Program-made: the position numbers and the translations under genes
In this document: piece by piece, positions 24,157 through 55,563 of the stretch
How the letters are laid out: each line of letters starts with the position of its first letter
Numbering within the stretch: the stretch's first letter is position 1
Assembly: GCF_032594935.1 (NCBI RefSeq)
Contig: NZ_CP118734.1
Coordinates: 276,001 to 340,000, forward strand
DNA length: 64,000 bases
Direction: 5' to 3'
DNA from: Streptococcus sp. 29892
Lineage (GTDB): Bacteria; Bacillota; Bacilli; Lactobacillales; Streptococcaceae
Notes under the pieces: model-generated
What the model was told of the DNA's origin: nothing
The model's database searches: none
The model's input: only the letters and a program-made list of their open reading frames with translations

Positions 24157-24256
24157 AAAGGATTGTTCAGTTTCTGATTGGAATTGAACAGGCCCAGCAA
24201 GCTTTGAGGAAAGCGTAACAGCATTCTCATACTTTTTGGGCTTAGTATCTTATATT
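24157..24256 (+). promoter_or_regulatory. Structured leader of sufB (SD-hairpin-AUG element)
   Basis: sufB has no Shine-Dalgarno close to its ATG. An SD-like AAAGGA is at 24157-24162, 94 bases away. The interval can fold into TGTTCA / TGAACA (24164-24190 region) and an arm AGGCCCA (24190-24196) pairing with TGGGCTT (24237-24243), enclosing a small GCTTT / AAAGC hairpin. The tail CTTAGTATCTTA before the ATG and the 5' GGAATTGAAC match the leaders of pdhC and pdhD. Confidence 0.55.
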
Positions 24257-25672
24257 ATGTCAGAAGAAAGAATTGAACCAACCCCGATTGATCTTGGGGA
24301 ATACAAATTCGGTTTCCATGATGAAAATGTGGAACTGGTGGCTTCGACTGGTAAGGGTTTGAGCGAAGATGTCATTCGTCAAATGTCCCGTATCAAAGGC
24401 GAGCCTGAATGGATGTTGGAATTCCGTTTGAAATCCTACGAAACCTTCAAGAAAATGCCGATGCAGACTTGGGGAGCTGACCTGTCTGAACTGGATTTTG
24501 ATGACATTGTTTACTATCAAAAACCGTCGGATAAGCCAGCGCGTAGCTGGGATGATGTACCGGACAAAATCAAGGAAACCTTTGAACGCATCGGTATTCC
24601 AGAAGCTGAGCGTGCTTACCTGGCAGGAGCCTCTGCCCAGTACGAATCAGAAGTGGTCTACCACAACATGAAGGAAGAGTACGATAAGCACGGCATTATC
24701 TTTACAGATACCGACACGGCCCTCAAGGAACATCCAGAACTCTTCAAAAAATACTTTGGAAAACTTGTTCCGCCATCAGACAATAAACTAGCTGCCCTCA
24801 ACTCAGCGGTTTGGTCAGGTGGAACCTTCATCTACGTACCAAAAGGTGTTAAATTAGATATTCCGCTTCAGACCTATTTCCGTATCAACAACGAAGGAAC
24901 AGGTCAGTTTGAACGCACCCTCATCATCGTGGATGAAGGAGCAAGTGTTCACTATGTAGAAGGCTGTACCGCTCCGACCTATTCAACGGCCAGCCTCCAC
25001 GCAGCGATTGTAGAAATCATTGCCCACGAGGGTGCTTATATGCGTTATACGACCATTCAAAACTGGTCCGATAACGTCTACAACTTGGTAACCAAGCGTG
25101 CCCGTGCCGAGAAAAATGCCACAGTTGAGTGGATTGACGGCAACCTTGGTGCCAAAACGACCATGAAATATCCAGCGGTTTACCTAGAAGGCGAAGGGGC
25201 ACGTGGAACCATGTTGTCCATTGCCTTTGCCAATAAAGGTCAAGTCCAGGATACCGGTGCTAAGATGATTCACAACGCCCCACGCACTTCATCTTCTATC
25301 GTATCCAAATCTATAGCCCGTGGCGGTGGGGAAGTCAACTACCGTGGACAAGTGACCTTTGCCAAAAACTCAGCCAAGTCAATCAGCCACATTGAATGTG
25401 ACACCATTATCATGGATGATATTTCCAAATCAGATACCATTCCATTTAATGAAATCCACAACTCGCAGGTGGCCCTCGAACACGAAGCTAAAGTATCAAA
25501 AATCTCAGAAGAACAACTCTACTACCTCATGAGCCGTGGCTTATCCGAATCCGAAGCTACAGAGATGATTGTCATGGGCTTTGTTGAACCATTCACCAAA
25601 GAACTCCCAATGGAATACGCAGTCGAACTCAACAGACTGATTGCCTATGAGATGGAGGGGAGCGTGGGTTAA
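24257..25672 (+). CDS. sufB: Fe-S assembly scaffold protein SufB
   Basis: 471 residues from ATG 24257; a TTG at 24236 in frame has no better support. SufB is the subunit on which the nascent cluster forms. Visible features: N-terminal [20 protein letters not shown], central [16 protein letters not shown] (conserved cysteine), and C-terminal [19 protein letters not shown] with the conserved cysteine and glutamate, then [17 protein letters not shown]. Last gene of sufCDSUB; a terminator follows. Confidence 0.96.
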
Positions 25673-51007: not shown

Positions 51008-52003
51008 ATGGCTGAAACAAAAGTAATGGCCTTGCGTGAAGCGATTAACTTGGCTCAAAGCGAAGAAATGCGTAAGGATGAAAAAGTATTCTTGATGGGT
51101 GAAGACGTCGGTATCTACGGCGGTGACTTCGGTACATCTGTTGGTATGTTGGACGAATTTGGTCCAAAACGCGTTCGCGACACGCCTATCTCTGAGGCTG
51201 CAATCGCTGGTTCTGCGGTTGGTGCGGCTCAAACCGGTCTTCGTCCAATCGTTGACTTGACTTTCATGGACTTCGTGACAATTGCACTTGACGCGATTGT
51301 TAACCAAGCTGCCAAAACTAACTACATGTTTGGTGGCGGCTTGAAGACACCTGTAACCTTCCGTGTGGCTTCAGGTTCTGGTATCGGTTCTGCAGCACAG
51401 CACTCACAATCTCTTGAAGCATGGTTGACTCACATCCCAGGTATCAAGGTGGTCGCACCTGGTACAGCTAACGATGCAAAAGGTCTTTTGAAATCATCTA
51501 TCCTTGATAACAACCCAGTTATCTTCTTGGAGCCAAAAGCTCTTTACGGTAAAAAAGAAGAAGTTAACTTAGACCCAGATTTCTACATTCCACTTGGTAA
51601 GGGTGAAATCAAACGTGAAGGTACTGATGTAACCATTATTTCATACGGTCGTATGTTGGAACGTGCCTTGAAAGCGGCTGAAGAAGTAGCTGCAGAAGGC
51701 ATCAGCGTAGAAGTGGTTGACCCACGTACCCTTATTCCATTGGATAAAGAATTGATCATCGAATCTGTGAAGAAAACTGGTAAGGTTATCTTGGTTAACG
51801 ATGCTTACAAAACAGGTGGTTTCATCGGTGAGATCGCATCAATCATCACAGAAAGCGAAGCCTTTGACTACTTGGATGCCCCAATCATCCGTATCGCTTC
51901 AGATGATGTACCAGTTCCTTACGCAAACATTCTTGAAAACGCAGTATTGCCAAACGTAGAGAAAATCAAATCGGCAATCTACAAGCAAGTAAACAAGGGT
52001 TAA
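51008..52003 (+). CDS. pdhB: Pyruvate (acetoin-type) dehydrogenase E1 component, beta subunit
   Basis: 331 residues, AGGAGAAA before the ATG. EDVGIYGGDFGTSVGMLDEF, DTPISEAAIAGSAVGAA, LTFMDFVTIALDAIVNQAAK and the C-terminal transketolase domain (ISYGRMLERALKAAEEVA, VVDPRTLIPLDKELI) are the family's blocks. Forms the alpha2beta2 E1 with PdhA. 51 bases separate it from pdhA and 217 structured bases from pdhC. Confidence 0.94.
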   Translation: MAETKVMALREAINLAQSEEMRKDEKVFLMGEDVGIYGGDFGTSVGMLDEFGPKRVRDTPISEAAIAGSAVGAAQTGLRPIVDLTFMDFVTIALDAIVNQAAKTNYMFGGGLKTPVTFRVASGSGIGSAAQHSQSLEAWLTHIPGIKVVAPGTANDAKGLLKSSILDNNPVIFLEPKALYGKKEEVNLDPDFYIPLGKGEIKREGTDVTIISYGRMLERALKAAEEVAAEGISVEVVDPRTLIPLDKELIIESVKKTGKVILVNDAYKTGGFIGEIASIITESEAFDYLDAPIIRIASDDVPVPYANILENAVLPNVEKIKSAIYKQVNKG

Positions 52004-52112
52004 GAAAGAATGGAAGGACGGGCAACCGTCCTAGCCCTGTTTGAAAGAATGTAACCTAGAATTGAGCCGACTTAGTGAATAAGTCTGGTTTAGTGGTTAT
52101 GTAAGAAACTGA

Positions 52113-52220
52113 AAGAAAGGAATTGATCCCGTCCGGAAAACTAGGAGAAAAGATAAGTCGCTAAGAAATCAAGATTTTCTATTTTTCAATCGTTTTCTGT
52201 TCGGACTTGGTATCTTAAAA
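52113..52220 (+). promoter_or_regulatory. Structured leader of pdhC (SD-hairpin-AUG element)
   Basis: No Shine-Dalgarno lies in the 20 bases before the pdhC ATG. AAAGGA is at 52116-52121, followed by AATTGATCCC. The 5' arm GTCCG (52131-52135) pairs with CGGAC (52202-52206), and GATCCC can pair with GGTATC (one mismatch). The arms enclose AGAAATC / GATTTTCT (52164-52180). Folded, AAAGGA and the ATG are about 9 unpaired bases apart. The 52004-52112 stretch upstream has no gene and only a GGACGG / CCGTCC hairpin near 52016. Confidence 0.6.
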
Positions 52221-53606
52221 ATGGCTATTGAAATCATTATGCCTAAGCTCGGTGTGGACATGCAAGAAGGTGAAATCATCGAGTGGAAAAAACAAGAGGG
52301 CGATTTCGTCAACGAAGGCGATGTCATCTTGGAAATGATGTCTGACAAGACCAGCATGGAGTTGGAAGCAGAAGAGTCAGGCGTCCTATTAAAAATTGTT
52401 CATGGAAACGGTGCTACTGTCCCTGTTACCGAAGTTATTGCCTACTTGGGTGCTGAAGGCGAAACGGTTGAAGCAGGAGCTTCATCTGCTCCAGTTGCCC
52501 CAGCTGCAGCCATCGAAGAAGTACCTGCAGGTCGCACGCCTGTTATTGTTGCTCCGGCAGCTGCTGCCAAACCACAAGGTGGTGGCAAGGTTCGTGCTAC
52601 TCCAGCAGCACGTAAATTGGCGCGTGAGCTTGGAATTGACTTAGGTCTTGTACCAGGAACTGGTGCAAATGGCCGTGTCCACAAGGCTGACGTTGAAGAC
52701 TTCAAGGGAGCAGCTCCAAAAGCAACTCCGCTTGCAGCCCGTATTGCAGCAGACCAAGGTGTTGATTTGTCAACCCTTACTGGTTCAGGTGTCAATGGTA
52801 AGATTGTTAAGGACGACGTTCTTGCAGTACTTGCTCCTGCAACTGTAGAAACTGTTGCTCCAGCACCGAAAGCTGAAGAGAAACCAGCTAAAGAATTGCC
52901 AGAAGGCGTTGAAATCATCAAGATGAGCCCAATGCGTAAGGCAATTTCAAAAGGTATGGTCAACTCTTACTTGACAGCTCCAACCTTTACGCTTAACTAC
53001 GATATCGACATGACCAACCTCATGGCATTGCGTAAGCAAGTCCTTGAGCCAATCATGAACAAGACTGGTTTGAAAGTAACATTTACTGACTTGATCGGTC
53101 TTGCAGTGGTTCGTACATTGATGAAGGAAGAACACCGCTATATGAATGCATCTTTGATTAACGATGCTCAAGAAATCGAGTTGCACAAGTTTGTCAACCT
53201 TGGTATCGCGGTAGGTTTGGATGAAGGCTTGGTGGTGCCAGTTGTTCACGGTGCAGATAAGATGAGCTTGTCTGACTTCGTGGTGGCTTCAAAAGATGTC
53301 ATCAAGAAGGCTCAATCTGGTAAGTTGAAGGGTGCGGAAATGTCAGGTTCTACCTTCTCTATCACCAACTTGGGTATGTTCGGTACTAAGACCTTCAACC
53401 CGATCATCAACCAACCAAACTCAGCCATCCTTGGTGTTGCAGCAACTGTTCAAACACCAGTTGTTATCGACGGCGAAATCAAAATCCGTCCAATCATGGC
53501 ACTCTGCTTGACCATTGACCACCGTATCGTTGACGGTATGAATGGTGCTAAGTTCATGGTTGACTTGAAGAACTTGTTGGAAAACCCATTGGAATTGTTG
53601 ATTTGA
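52221..53606 (+). CDS. pdhC: Dihydrolipoamide acetyltransferase E2 of the dehydrogenase complex
   Basis: 461 residues. Lipoyl domain 1-80 with the lipoylated lysine in SDKTSM (Lys43). Then come an Ala/Pro linker and two peripheral-subunit-binding domains: about 125-161 (ATPAARKLARELGIDL, GANGRVHKADVEDF) and 168-204 (ATPLAARIAADQGVDL, GVNGKIVKDDVLAVL). The catalytic domain is about 230-461, ending with the DHRIVDGMNG active-site motif. It transfers the acetyl group from lipoamide to CoA and forms the complex core. Two binding domains are unusual; most E2 chains have one. The lipoyl domain is identical to that of PdhD. Confidence 0.94.
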   Translation: MAIEIIMPKLGVDMQEGEIIEWKKQEGDFVNEGDVILEMMSDKTSMELEAEESGVLLKIVHGNGATVPVTEVIAYLGAEGETVEAGASSAPVAPAAAIEEVPAGRTPVIVAPAAAAKPQGGGKVRATPAARKLARELGIDLGLVPGTGANGRVHKADVEDFKGAAPKATPLAARIAADQGVDLSTLTGSGVNGKIVKDDVLAVLAPATVETVAPAPKAEEKPAKELPEGVEIIKMSPMRKAISKGMVNSYLTAPTFTLNYDIDMTNLMALRKQVLEPIMNKTGLKVTFTDLIGLAVVRTLMKEEHRYMNASLINDAQEIELHKFVNLGIAVGLDEGLVVPVVHGADKMSLSDFVVASKDVIKKAQSGKLKGAEMSGSTFSITNLGMFGTKTFNPIINQPNSAILGVAATVQTPVVIDGEIKIRPIMALCLTIDHRIVDGMNGAKFMVDLKNLLENPLELLI

Positions 53607-53660
53607 TAAGGTTTCCATTGGTTTAAACTAGAGAATTAGATTTCTGAATAGAAAATAAAG

Positions 53661-53802
53661 AAAGGGAATAAGAGCGAGAGAGTTTTAGCAATTGAACCCG
53701 AGCGGAAAGCTCGGAAAAATAGATAAATCGTTTAGAAAATCAGGATTTTCTACGATTTCCTAATTTTTCAGTCGCTTTCTCTTCGCTCTTGGTATCTTAA
53801 TC
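53661..53802 (+). promoter_or_regulatory. Structured leader of pdhD (SD-hairpin-AUG element)
   Basis: Again no SD near the ATG at 53803. AAAGGGA is at 53661-53667. AATTGAACCC (53690-53699) is followed by GAGCG (53700-53704), which pairs with CGCTC (53784-53788); an alternative longer pairing is AAGAGCGA (53670-53677) with TCGCTCTT (53783-53790). Inner stems: CCGAGC / GCTCGG, and TAGAAAATC / GATTTTCTA (53733-53752). The tail TTGGTATCTTA is identical to that of pdhC. Confidence 0.6.
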
Positions 53803-55563
53803 ATGGCAATTGAAATTATTATGCCTAAACTTGGTGTAGATATGCAGGAAGGCGAAATCATCGAGTGGAAAAAACAAGAGGGTGATTTTGTCAACGAAGG
53901 CGATGTTATCTTGGAGATGATGTCAGACAAGACAAGCATGGAATTGGAAGCGGAAGAGTCAGGTGTACTCTTGAAAATCGTTCACGGTAACGGTGCAACA
54001 GTTCCTGTAACAGAAGTCATTGCTTACCTTGGTGCAGAAGGTGAAACCGTTGAAGTTGGCAGCGCACCTGCTCCAGCTGAGGTTGCTCAAGCAACTGCTG
54101 ACTTGAAAGCAGCTGGTTTGGAAGTACCTGCAGCTCCTGCAGCAGCTCCACAAGCTCCTAAGGCTGAATTGGCAGCTGACGAGTATGACATGGTTGTTGT
54201 CGGTGGTGGTCCTGCTGGTTACTACGCAGCTATTCGTGGTGCTCAATTGGGCGGTAAAATCGCTATCGTTGAGAAATCAGAATTTGGTGGTACCTGCTTG
54301 AACAAGGGCTGTATCCCAACTAAGACCTACCTCAAAAATGCTGAAATCCTTGACGGCTTGAAGATTGCGGCTGAGCGTGGAATCAACCTTGCTTCAACCA
54401 ACTACACAGTTGATATGGACAAGACAGTTGACTTCAAGAACAAGGTTGTGAAGACCTTGACAGGCGGTGTAGCAGGTCTCTTGAAAGCCAATAAGGTAAC
54501 CATCTTCAACGGTCTTGGTCAAGTAAACCCTGACAAGACTGTTGTCATCGGAGACAAGGTTATCAAAGGTCGTAGCATCGTTCTTGCAACAGGTTCTAAG
54601 GTATCCCGCATCAATATCCCAGGTATCGATTCTAAGTTGGTATTGACGTCTGATGATATCCTTGACTTGCGTGAAATTCCTAAGTCACTCACTGTTATGG
54701 GTGGCGGCGTAGTCGGTGTAGAACTTGGTTTGGTTTATGCATCATACGGTACAGAAGTAACAGTTGTTGAGATGGCAGACCGTATCATTCCAGGTATGGA
54801 CCGCGAAGTGTCTGTAGAATTGCAAAAAGTCCTTTCTAAGAAAGGTATGAAATTCTTGACATCAGTTGGTGTATCTGAAATCGTTGAAGCTAATAACCAA
54901 TTGACCATCAAGTTGAACGACGGCTCAGAAATCGTTTCTGAAAAAGCCCTTCTTTCAATCGGTCGTGTACCACAATTGGCTGGTCTTGAAAATCTTAACC
55001 TTGAACTAGACCGCGGTCGTATCAAGGTCAACGAATACCAAGAAACATCTATCCCAGGTATCTACGCACCAGGTGATGTTAACGGTACTAAGATGTTGGC
55101 TCACGCTGCTTACCGCATGGGTGAAGTGGCAGCTGAAAATGCCATCCACGGTAACCACCACAAGGCTAAATTGGACTTCACACCAGCAGCGGTTTACACA
55201 CACCCAGAAATCGCTATGGTTGGTTTGACAGAAGACCAAGCTATCGAGAAATATGGTAAAGAAAACATCCTTATCGGTCGCAACAGCTTTACTGGTAATG
55301 GTCGTGCCATCGCTTCTAACGAAGCACATGGTTTCGTAAAAGTTATCGCTGATAAGAAATACCATGAAATCCTTGGTGTTCACATCATCGGTCCAGTTGC
55401 GGCTGAAATGATCAACGAAGCAGCAACCATCATGGAATCTGAGTTGACAGTTGACGACGTGGCAGCATCAATCCACGGTCACCCAACCTTCTCAGAAGTG
55501 ATGTACGAAGCCTTCCTTGATGTGCTTGGTGTTGCGATCCACAACCCACCAAAGCGGAAATAA
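53803..55563 (+). CDS. pdhD: Dihydrolipoamide dehydrogenase E3 with N-terminal lipoyl domain
   Basis: 586 residues. Residues 1-80 are a lipoyl domain (Lys43 in SDKTSM); an Ala/Pro linker to about 125 leads into the flavoprotein: FAD site VVVGGGPAGYYAAIRGAQ, redox disulfide GGTCLNKGCIPTK, NAD site TVMGGGVVGVELGLVYASYG, and the C-terminal HGHPTFSE base. It re-oxidises dihydrolipoamide with NAD+. Lipoylated E3 enzymes occur in several streptococci. Identity of its first 84 residues to PdhC, with many silent differences, points to an older duplication under strong selection. Confidence 0.95.
   Translation: MAIEIIMPKLGVDMQEGEIIEWKKQEGDFVNEGDVILEMMSDKTSMELEAEESGVLLKIVHGNGATVPVTEVIAYLGAEGETVEVGSAPAPAEVAQATADLKAAGLEVPAAPAAAPQAPKAELAADEYDMVVVGGGPAGYYAAIRGAQLGGKIAIVEKSEFGGTCLNKGCIPTKTYLKNAEILDGLKIAAERGINLASTNYTVDMDKTVDFKNKVVKTLTGGVAGLLKANKVTIFNGLGQVNPDKTVVIGDKVIKGRSIVLATGSKVSRINIPGIDSKLVLTSDDILDLREIPKSLTVMGGGVVGVELGLVYASYGTEVTVVEMADRIIPGMDREVSVELQKVLSKKGMKFLTSVGVSEIVEANNQLTIKLNDGSEIVSEKALLSIGRVPQLAGLENLNLELDRGRIKVNEYQETSIPGIYAPGDVNGTKMLAHAAYRMGEVAAENAIHGNHHKAKLDFTPAAVYTHPEIAMVGLTEDQAIEKYGKENILIGRNSFTGNGRAIASNEAHGFVKVIADKKYHEILGVHIIGPVAAEMINEAATIMESELTVDDVAASIHGHPTFSEVMYEAFLDVLGVAIHNPPKRK

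Follow-up and report, generated by a model that had tools for sequence, protein, structure and literature searches.

How do ribosomes find the start codons of two genes whose Shine-Dalgarno (SD) sequences lie more than 100 bases upstream? The question is raised by pdhC (E2, 461 aa; 52221..53606) and pdhD (E3 with a lipoyl domain, 586 aa; 53803..55563), two open reading frames named by the earlier reader and from the sequence. They lie in a stretch of 64,000 nucleotides from Streptococcus sp. 29892 (hereafter the window; all features located in it below are on the forward strand). The earlier note on this DNA had described, at both genes, a distant AAAGG(A/G) followed by a stem-loop with paired arms, and the sequence bears out this layout. 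At pdhC, AAAGGA (52116..52121) precedes the ATG at 52221 by 105 bases. It is followed by a hairpin (52125..52214), recognized from sequence, covariance-model match and alignment, in which GAUCC (52125-52129) and GGUAUC (52209-52214) form the base, GUCCG (52131-52135) stands opposite CGGAC (52202-52206; GUCC/GGAC in the family alignment), GAAAAC/GUUUUC follows, and the upper part is degenerate. A 6-nt tail, UUAAAA (52215..52220), leads from the hairpin to the AUG, and TTGGTATCTTA stops 3 bases short of the start codon. At pdhD, AAAGGG (53661..53666) lies 142 bases from the ATG at 53803, and the GAGCG/CGCTC arms are present. The hairpin (53694..53796; covariance-model match and alignment) comprises GAACC/GGUAUC, GAGC/GCUC, GAAAGC/GCUUUC and upper stems. 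The closing pairing of pdhD had to be corrected: GAGCG/CGCUC together with the base helix leaves 27 bases from the SD to the hairpin, and the gap is probably closed by a second 5′ arm, AAGAGCGA (53670..53677), pairing with UCGCUCUU (53783..53790), as the minimum-energy fold and the test on long-linker copies described below suggest. The 3′ arm is common to this proposed closing helix and to the P1 helix of the family.

When the leaders were folded singly, that of pdhC was as stable as its shuffles (z -0.10) and that of pdhD was more stable (z -4.01). The structural case for the pdh leaders stands on comparison across copies, not on single-sequence folding. The nearest copies to compare are the two leaders themselves, which are 75% identical over ∼100 bases (BLASTN within the same genome) and precede sequences encoding near-identical protein N-termini. 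Both facts would follow if the likeness of the leaders came only from a joint duplication of leader and lipoyl domain, the structure being incidental. However, when the pdh leaders served as BLASTN queries against their own genome (G000), mutM proved to have a third copy (E 5.7e-7) and proS gave a weak match (E 0.12), and a covariance model built from these four copies (R1) yielded 21 matches in G000 at E<0.01, the founding four among them. Twelve directly precede a start codon: those of pdhC, pdhD, mutM, proS, carA, carB, dnaJ, prfA, alaS, sufB, a thioredoxin-like gene and yhbY (names at family copies are those we presume from the protein ends). The remaining nine comprise two upstream of rpoB, which has a fresh SD before its own start, one or more after rpsJ and beside tRNA genes, two antisense behind rpsG, second tandem copies at prfA and dnaJ, and one more site. 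The copy at sufB is a shortened third copy within the window (24157..24256), with AAAGGA at 24157-24162, hairpins, a tail and the sufB ATG at 24257; R1 matches it at 24176-24258 (E 0.0045), and it is absent from the matches of R2, a covariance model that covers the complete structure.

The pdhC and pdhD leaders are thus two copies of a dispersed, structured hairpin repeat that is found throughout Streptococcus. R1 had matches (E<=0.01) in 37 of 59 genomes, namely 33 of the 36 in the genus (own genome included) and four others. The covariance-model search of Streptococcus that the earlier note had proposed found the family in 115 of 118 same-genus genomes (R2, E<=1e-6; zero matches in three), with strong covariation. 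Of 118 genomes drawn from the order as a whole, 21 were matched at E<=1e-5, 16 of them in the genus and five, with weaker scores, in two other genera. Copy numbers per genome in the R1 and R2 surveys are lower bounds, because few candidates were scored per genome. By its PdhC, the genome of the window is close to Streptococcus suis. With the family at mutM, proS, dnaJ, carA, carB, alaS and other genes, and with several species showing a model match at one pdh gene only, the duplication of leader plus lipoyl domain invoked in the earlier note is unneeded; the existence of the family, together with its strong covariation, in effect refutes duplication as the sole source of the likeness and leaves it next to no credibility.

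The six loci inspected among the other-genus matches hold arrays or adjacent copies of repeats that share the family core. In another genus, L163, L164, L168 and L174 (G044, G057) carry ∼120-base repeats, arrayed or adjacent to each other, which combine the same AAAAAAGATAA / TTTCCTATTTTT core with a GCATCTTATTTTAATTGAGC-like junction. Repeats in G058 have mainly the AAAAAAGATAAA / TTTCCTATTTTT core in common and were not counted as members. No copy was found on plasmids with the pdhD leader as query, or on plasmids and phages with the G044 repeat.

Across copies, the family folds as one long imperfect hairpin of ∼100 bases, with 28 pairs in seven helices. In 96 distinct rows from 107 R1 matches, 95.5% of 2527 cells were paired, compared with 74.2% after shuffling, and the covariation score was 0.542, compared with 0.178 for shuffled and at most 0.130 for slid alignments, the shuffles not preserving the relatedness of the copies. 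All helices covary, among them the arms that the earlier note had described as differing in sequence while staying paired. For P1, P1b and three P2 pairs the counts are biased, because R1 guided the alignment there; those of P1x, P3 and P4 are free of this bias. P1x is the base helix (GAAC-N with N-GU(A)UC), which covaries although it lies outside R1: its N-N pair is AU in 38, CG in 28, UA in nine and UG in three of 90 cells, and its other pairs occur as AU/GC and CG/UA. It generalizes the added GAUCCC/GGUAUC pairing that had been suggested for pdhC. A pseudoknot between GAUA and UAUC was rejected, because the covarying pairing partner of UAUC is GA(A)C, at the base.

Where the copies lie with respect to genes was determined in six single-contig genomes (G000, G007, G014, G022, G032 and G034), in which R2 gave 138 matches at E<=0.001, 130 of them aligned at E<=1e-4. 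Copies were assigned to the start-codon class when an ATG (TTG for mutM) opening an ORF of >=50 codons lay 2-8 nt past the hairpin; these explicit rules (53 and 77 copies) supersede a first classing into 51 start, 19 weak and 60 none. In the 53 start-codon copies the distance was 6 or 7 nt in 33 cases, and the tails mostly open with UUA or AUA. An SD-like hexamer was present no more than 50 nt upstream of the hairpin in all 53, compared with seven of the 77 others, and in none of the 53 was there an SD-like sequence in the tail. The hairpin contained an in-frame stop in 48. The 53 copies are not independent, because they represent ∼19 genes, and the models, having been grown from four start-codon copies, may favour this class. 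Placement between SD and AUG appears strongly enriched: by a rough estimate that assumes ∼2,000 genes with SD-AUG gaps of 8 nt, such sites would make up under 1% of a genome. Because start-codon copies precede ∼19 different genes in the six genomes, a switch specific to pdh that sets E2:E3 levels, as had been considered in the earlier note, is not supported.

The reading that we favour, with moderate confidence and on the strength of comparative sequence data, is that this is a mobile-type repeat whose fold, in the copies between SD and start codon, would keep the SD usable across the insert, as in genes 38 and 25 of phage T4. In these, according to the available part of PMC3014915, RNA structure cuts the SD-AUG distance from 22 to 5 nt and from 27 to 11 nt, respectively. 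That structure can shorten an overlong SD-AUG distance is, on that source, already established. The comparison with T4 gene 38, drawn in the earlier note, fits the comparative evidence, that is, the covarying base helix and the order of SD, hairpin and start: in both systems an SD too far from the AUG is separated from it by RNA structure. The T4 cases are short phage structures at single loci with mutational evidence, whereas the Streptococcus family is known from sequence and, unlike them, forms an insert of ∼100-150 nt that recurs, as a dispersed repeat of a bacterial genus, at numerous core genes. In the favoured reading, copies would spread or swap between sites, as suggested by their distribution alone, neither mobility machinery nor a target duplication having been noticed among the copies inspected; insertions between SD and AUG would be tolerated because the fold would bring the two near each other, and the 30S subunit would use them together across the stem.

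How short the remaining path might be depends on the layout. The SD lies 2-3 nt before the hairpin in 17 of the 53 start-codon copies and 8 nt before it in one (proS of G014). In this short-linker layout (median SD-AUG gap, 110.5 nt; 18 copies), a closed base helix would leave 4-11 unpaired nt from SD to AUG, and 3 + 6 = 9 in pdhC. In the long-linker layout, 14-37 nt follow the SD (35 of 53; median gap, 131 nt), and the 3′ end is often complementary to a second 5′ arm: besides AAGAGCGA/UCGCUCUU in pdhD, AGGGGUGUU/AACGCCCUU in carA and GAUACA/UGUAUC in carB. Such pairing would leave about 9-19 nt. The best-helix score of second arms with their own 3′ ends was 13.7, compared with 12.2 for swapped (p 7e-4) and 11.4 for shuffled arms (p 1e-4), among 30 distinct long-linker cases that include orthologs. 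No clear second arm was seen in the long-linker copies at alaS, parC, prmA, yhbY and sufB.

Thermodynamic folding gave a mixed picture. The sequences between SD and AUG were considerably more stable than shuffles (-31.5 vs -18.2 and -43.3 vs -26.3 kcal/mol), whereas the exterior unpaired length from SD to AUG was barely below that of shuffles (13.8 vs 14.9 and 13.1 vs 14.0). This length hardly separates real from shuffled sequence and was discarded as a test of bridging. On folding with flanks, all 18 short-linker copies had a gap-closing pair with a probability >0.5, as did 23 of the 35 long-linker copies but not the other 12. The length left by the outermost pair >0.5 had a median of 20.5 nt in the short-linker layout (<=15 nt in five of 18) and 16 nt in the long-linker layout (<=15 nt in 16 of 35); this measure takes a single helix into account and is misleading for copies that have two hairpins next to each other. 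The SD and the AUG were only about half unpaired when folded with flanking sequence. By the outermost-pair and exterior-length results, the base helix is often open in the energy models, despite its support from covariation.

That folding gives no clear short path from SD to AUG would suit a different explanation, namely that the repeat is selfish or neutral, that it keeps the hairpin for its own spreading, and that initiation is SD-independent, at a standby site or an open start, with the upstream SD a relic. It would also account for the 77 of 130 copies that lie away from start codons, in either orientation and also as tandem copies, with a largely unchanged hairpin. P1x is paired in 95.7% of cells in start-codon copies and in 91.8% in the 77 others; because these keep the hairpin, the covariation may serve the repeat itself and is no proof of a translational role. 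The ratio of GU to AC cells (44:28 in start-codon copies, 43:37 in others), tried as a mark of selection at the RNA level, proved weak, with 19 AC cells per class falling in P1b. The precedent of BOX, RUP and SPRITE, small structured repeats known in pneumococcus (in the part of PMC3049150 available), points the same way. A mere relic would, however, hardly be expected to retain an SD in 53 of 53 start-codon copies, so tight a distance from hairpin to start and an extra pairing arm in long-linker copies, and we consider this explanation rather unlikely.

The region upstream of the hairpin also bears on a regulatory switch, in which the GAAC segment would pair either in the base helix or in a competing upstream hairpin, P0, and translation would be set in this way according to a signal, a protein or temperature. 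The longest helix between upstream sequence and the GAAC arm averaged 7.9 bp, compared with 5.3 bp shuffled, in 49 distinct start-codon copies, and 5.9 bp, compared with 5.4 bp, in 68 others, which is what a switch would predict. On the other hand, the ∼19 genes are mostly housekeeping by name and share no obvious common signal, 17 copies have just 2-3 nt from SD to hairpin, and Rfam gave no match at gathering score in the 64-kb window and none at E<=1 for 52000-53850, which includes both pdh leaders. A switch thus seems quite improbable. Transcription starts or RNA cleavage within the leader, giving short mRNAs free of SD and hairpin, would leave unexplained why all 53 start-codon copies have an SD on the far side of the hairpin, and are very improbable.

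At orthologous loci the slot can be empty, and an SD then usually stands within a few bases of the AUG. In S. suis SSHP-D (L098), the pdhC slot reads GAAAGGAAAATCAAA-ATG, without the element. Among 80 named pdh loci surveyed, two per gene being unscorable, R2 matched 22 of the 78 scorable loci for pdhC and 30 of 78 for pdhD. Where it was lacking, an SD stood 3-14 nt from the start of pdhC in 52 of 56 loci and 1-12 nt from that of pdhD in 43 of 48. By eye, the four pdhC exceptions (L112, L134, L135 and L143) each contain a short or degenerate hairpin that separates AAAGG from ATG. Of the five for pdhD, L098 and L121 have a weak SD, L131 and L143 mini or degenerate hairpins (by eye), and L159 an SD outside the pattern used. 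Different subfamilies occupy the same pdhC or pdhD slot in different S. suis lineages (by eye). At proS, likewise by eye, the element is present in six of 25 same-genus genomes, where it belongs to several subfamilies; 17 show an SD-like sequence near the start, and the remaining two (G012 and G020) have short hairpins that end in a similar tail. These two hairpins (L322 and L316) are of other sequence and lie between SD and ATG, with GTATCTTA or TATCATT tails, and are perhaps relics or parallel cases.

Taken further, the distribution is compatible with a bolder reading, possible and put forward tentatively from sequence comparison: a mobile structured element may land between SD and AUG in core genes, genus-wide and nearly silently, because its RNA fold would let initiating ribosomes reach across. 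It would then be a translational counterpart of an intron, kept in the mRNA and skipped at initiation. With dozens of SD-hairpin-AUG leaders occurring naturally, and empty alleles to match, it can be tested directly whether a ribosome can use an SD that lies beyond a long structure in ordinary genes of bacteria. A genus-wide repeat without an Rfam match in the window also bears on the annotation of start sites and leaders, including those of the core genes pdh, carAB, dnaJ, proS and alaS.

The family resembles BOX, RUP and SPRITE of S. pneumoniae, and the BOX-type RepSU1 and boxE/boxF of S. suis, in being small, interspersed, predicted to form stem-loops and located near genes (available part of PMC3049150). 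That text gives their range as pneumococcus, S. mitis and, for the BOX type, S. suis, and calls them almost absent from other streptococci, whereas the present family, with 115 of 118 genomes of the genus, has a far wider range. SPRITE has an 18-bp duplex followed by a relatively U-rich, terminator-like tract, whereas in start-codon copies 2-8 nt follow before the start codon. The EFAR elements of E. faecalis, which Venditti is said to have described in 2007, are reportedly palindromic intergenic elements of ∼170 bp with two stem-loops. The Efa-1 repeat family of the same species is given as 163 bp in the accessible portion of PMC2267715. EFAR and Efa-1 were compared with the Streptococcus family by description only; repeats with the same core occur in other genera of the order. 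The literature searched, with subscription journals mostly outside it, held no description of the Streptococcus hairpin family, and the part of PMC2229807 available held nothing relevant beyond RUP.

Several further features of individual copies were seen. In several genomes, antisense copies (L044, L228, L236, L285 and L300) lie immediately behind the stop codon of a gene that we take to be rpsG. In G022, copies at L259, L261, L264 and L265 adjoin, in antisense, the start of what is presumably a 23S rRNA gene. G014 has repeated identical copies (L231, L232, L234, L235, L247, L248, L250 and L251). At L031, a weak second R1 match (1629-1710, E 0.0094) lies immediately upstream of the proS element, and at L049 a stretch that we take to be BOX-like (TATACTCAATGAAAAT) adjoins the element, past the 5′ end of the copy at yhbY.
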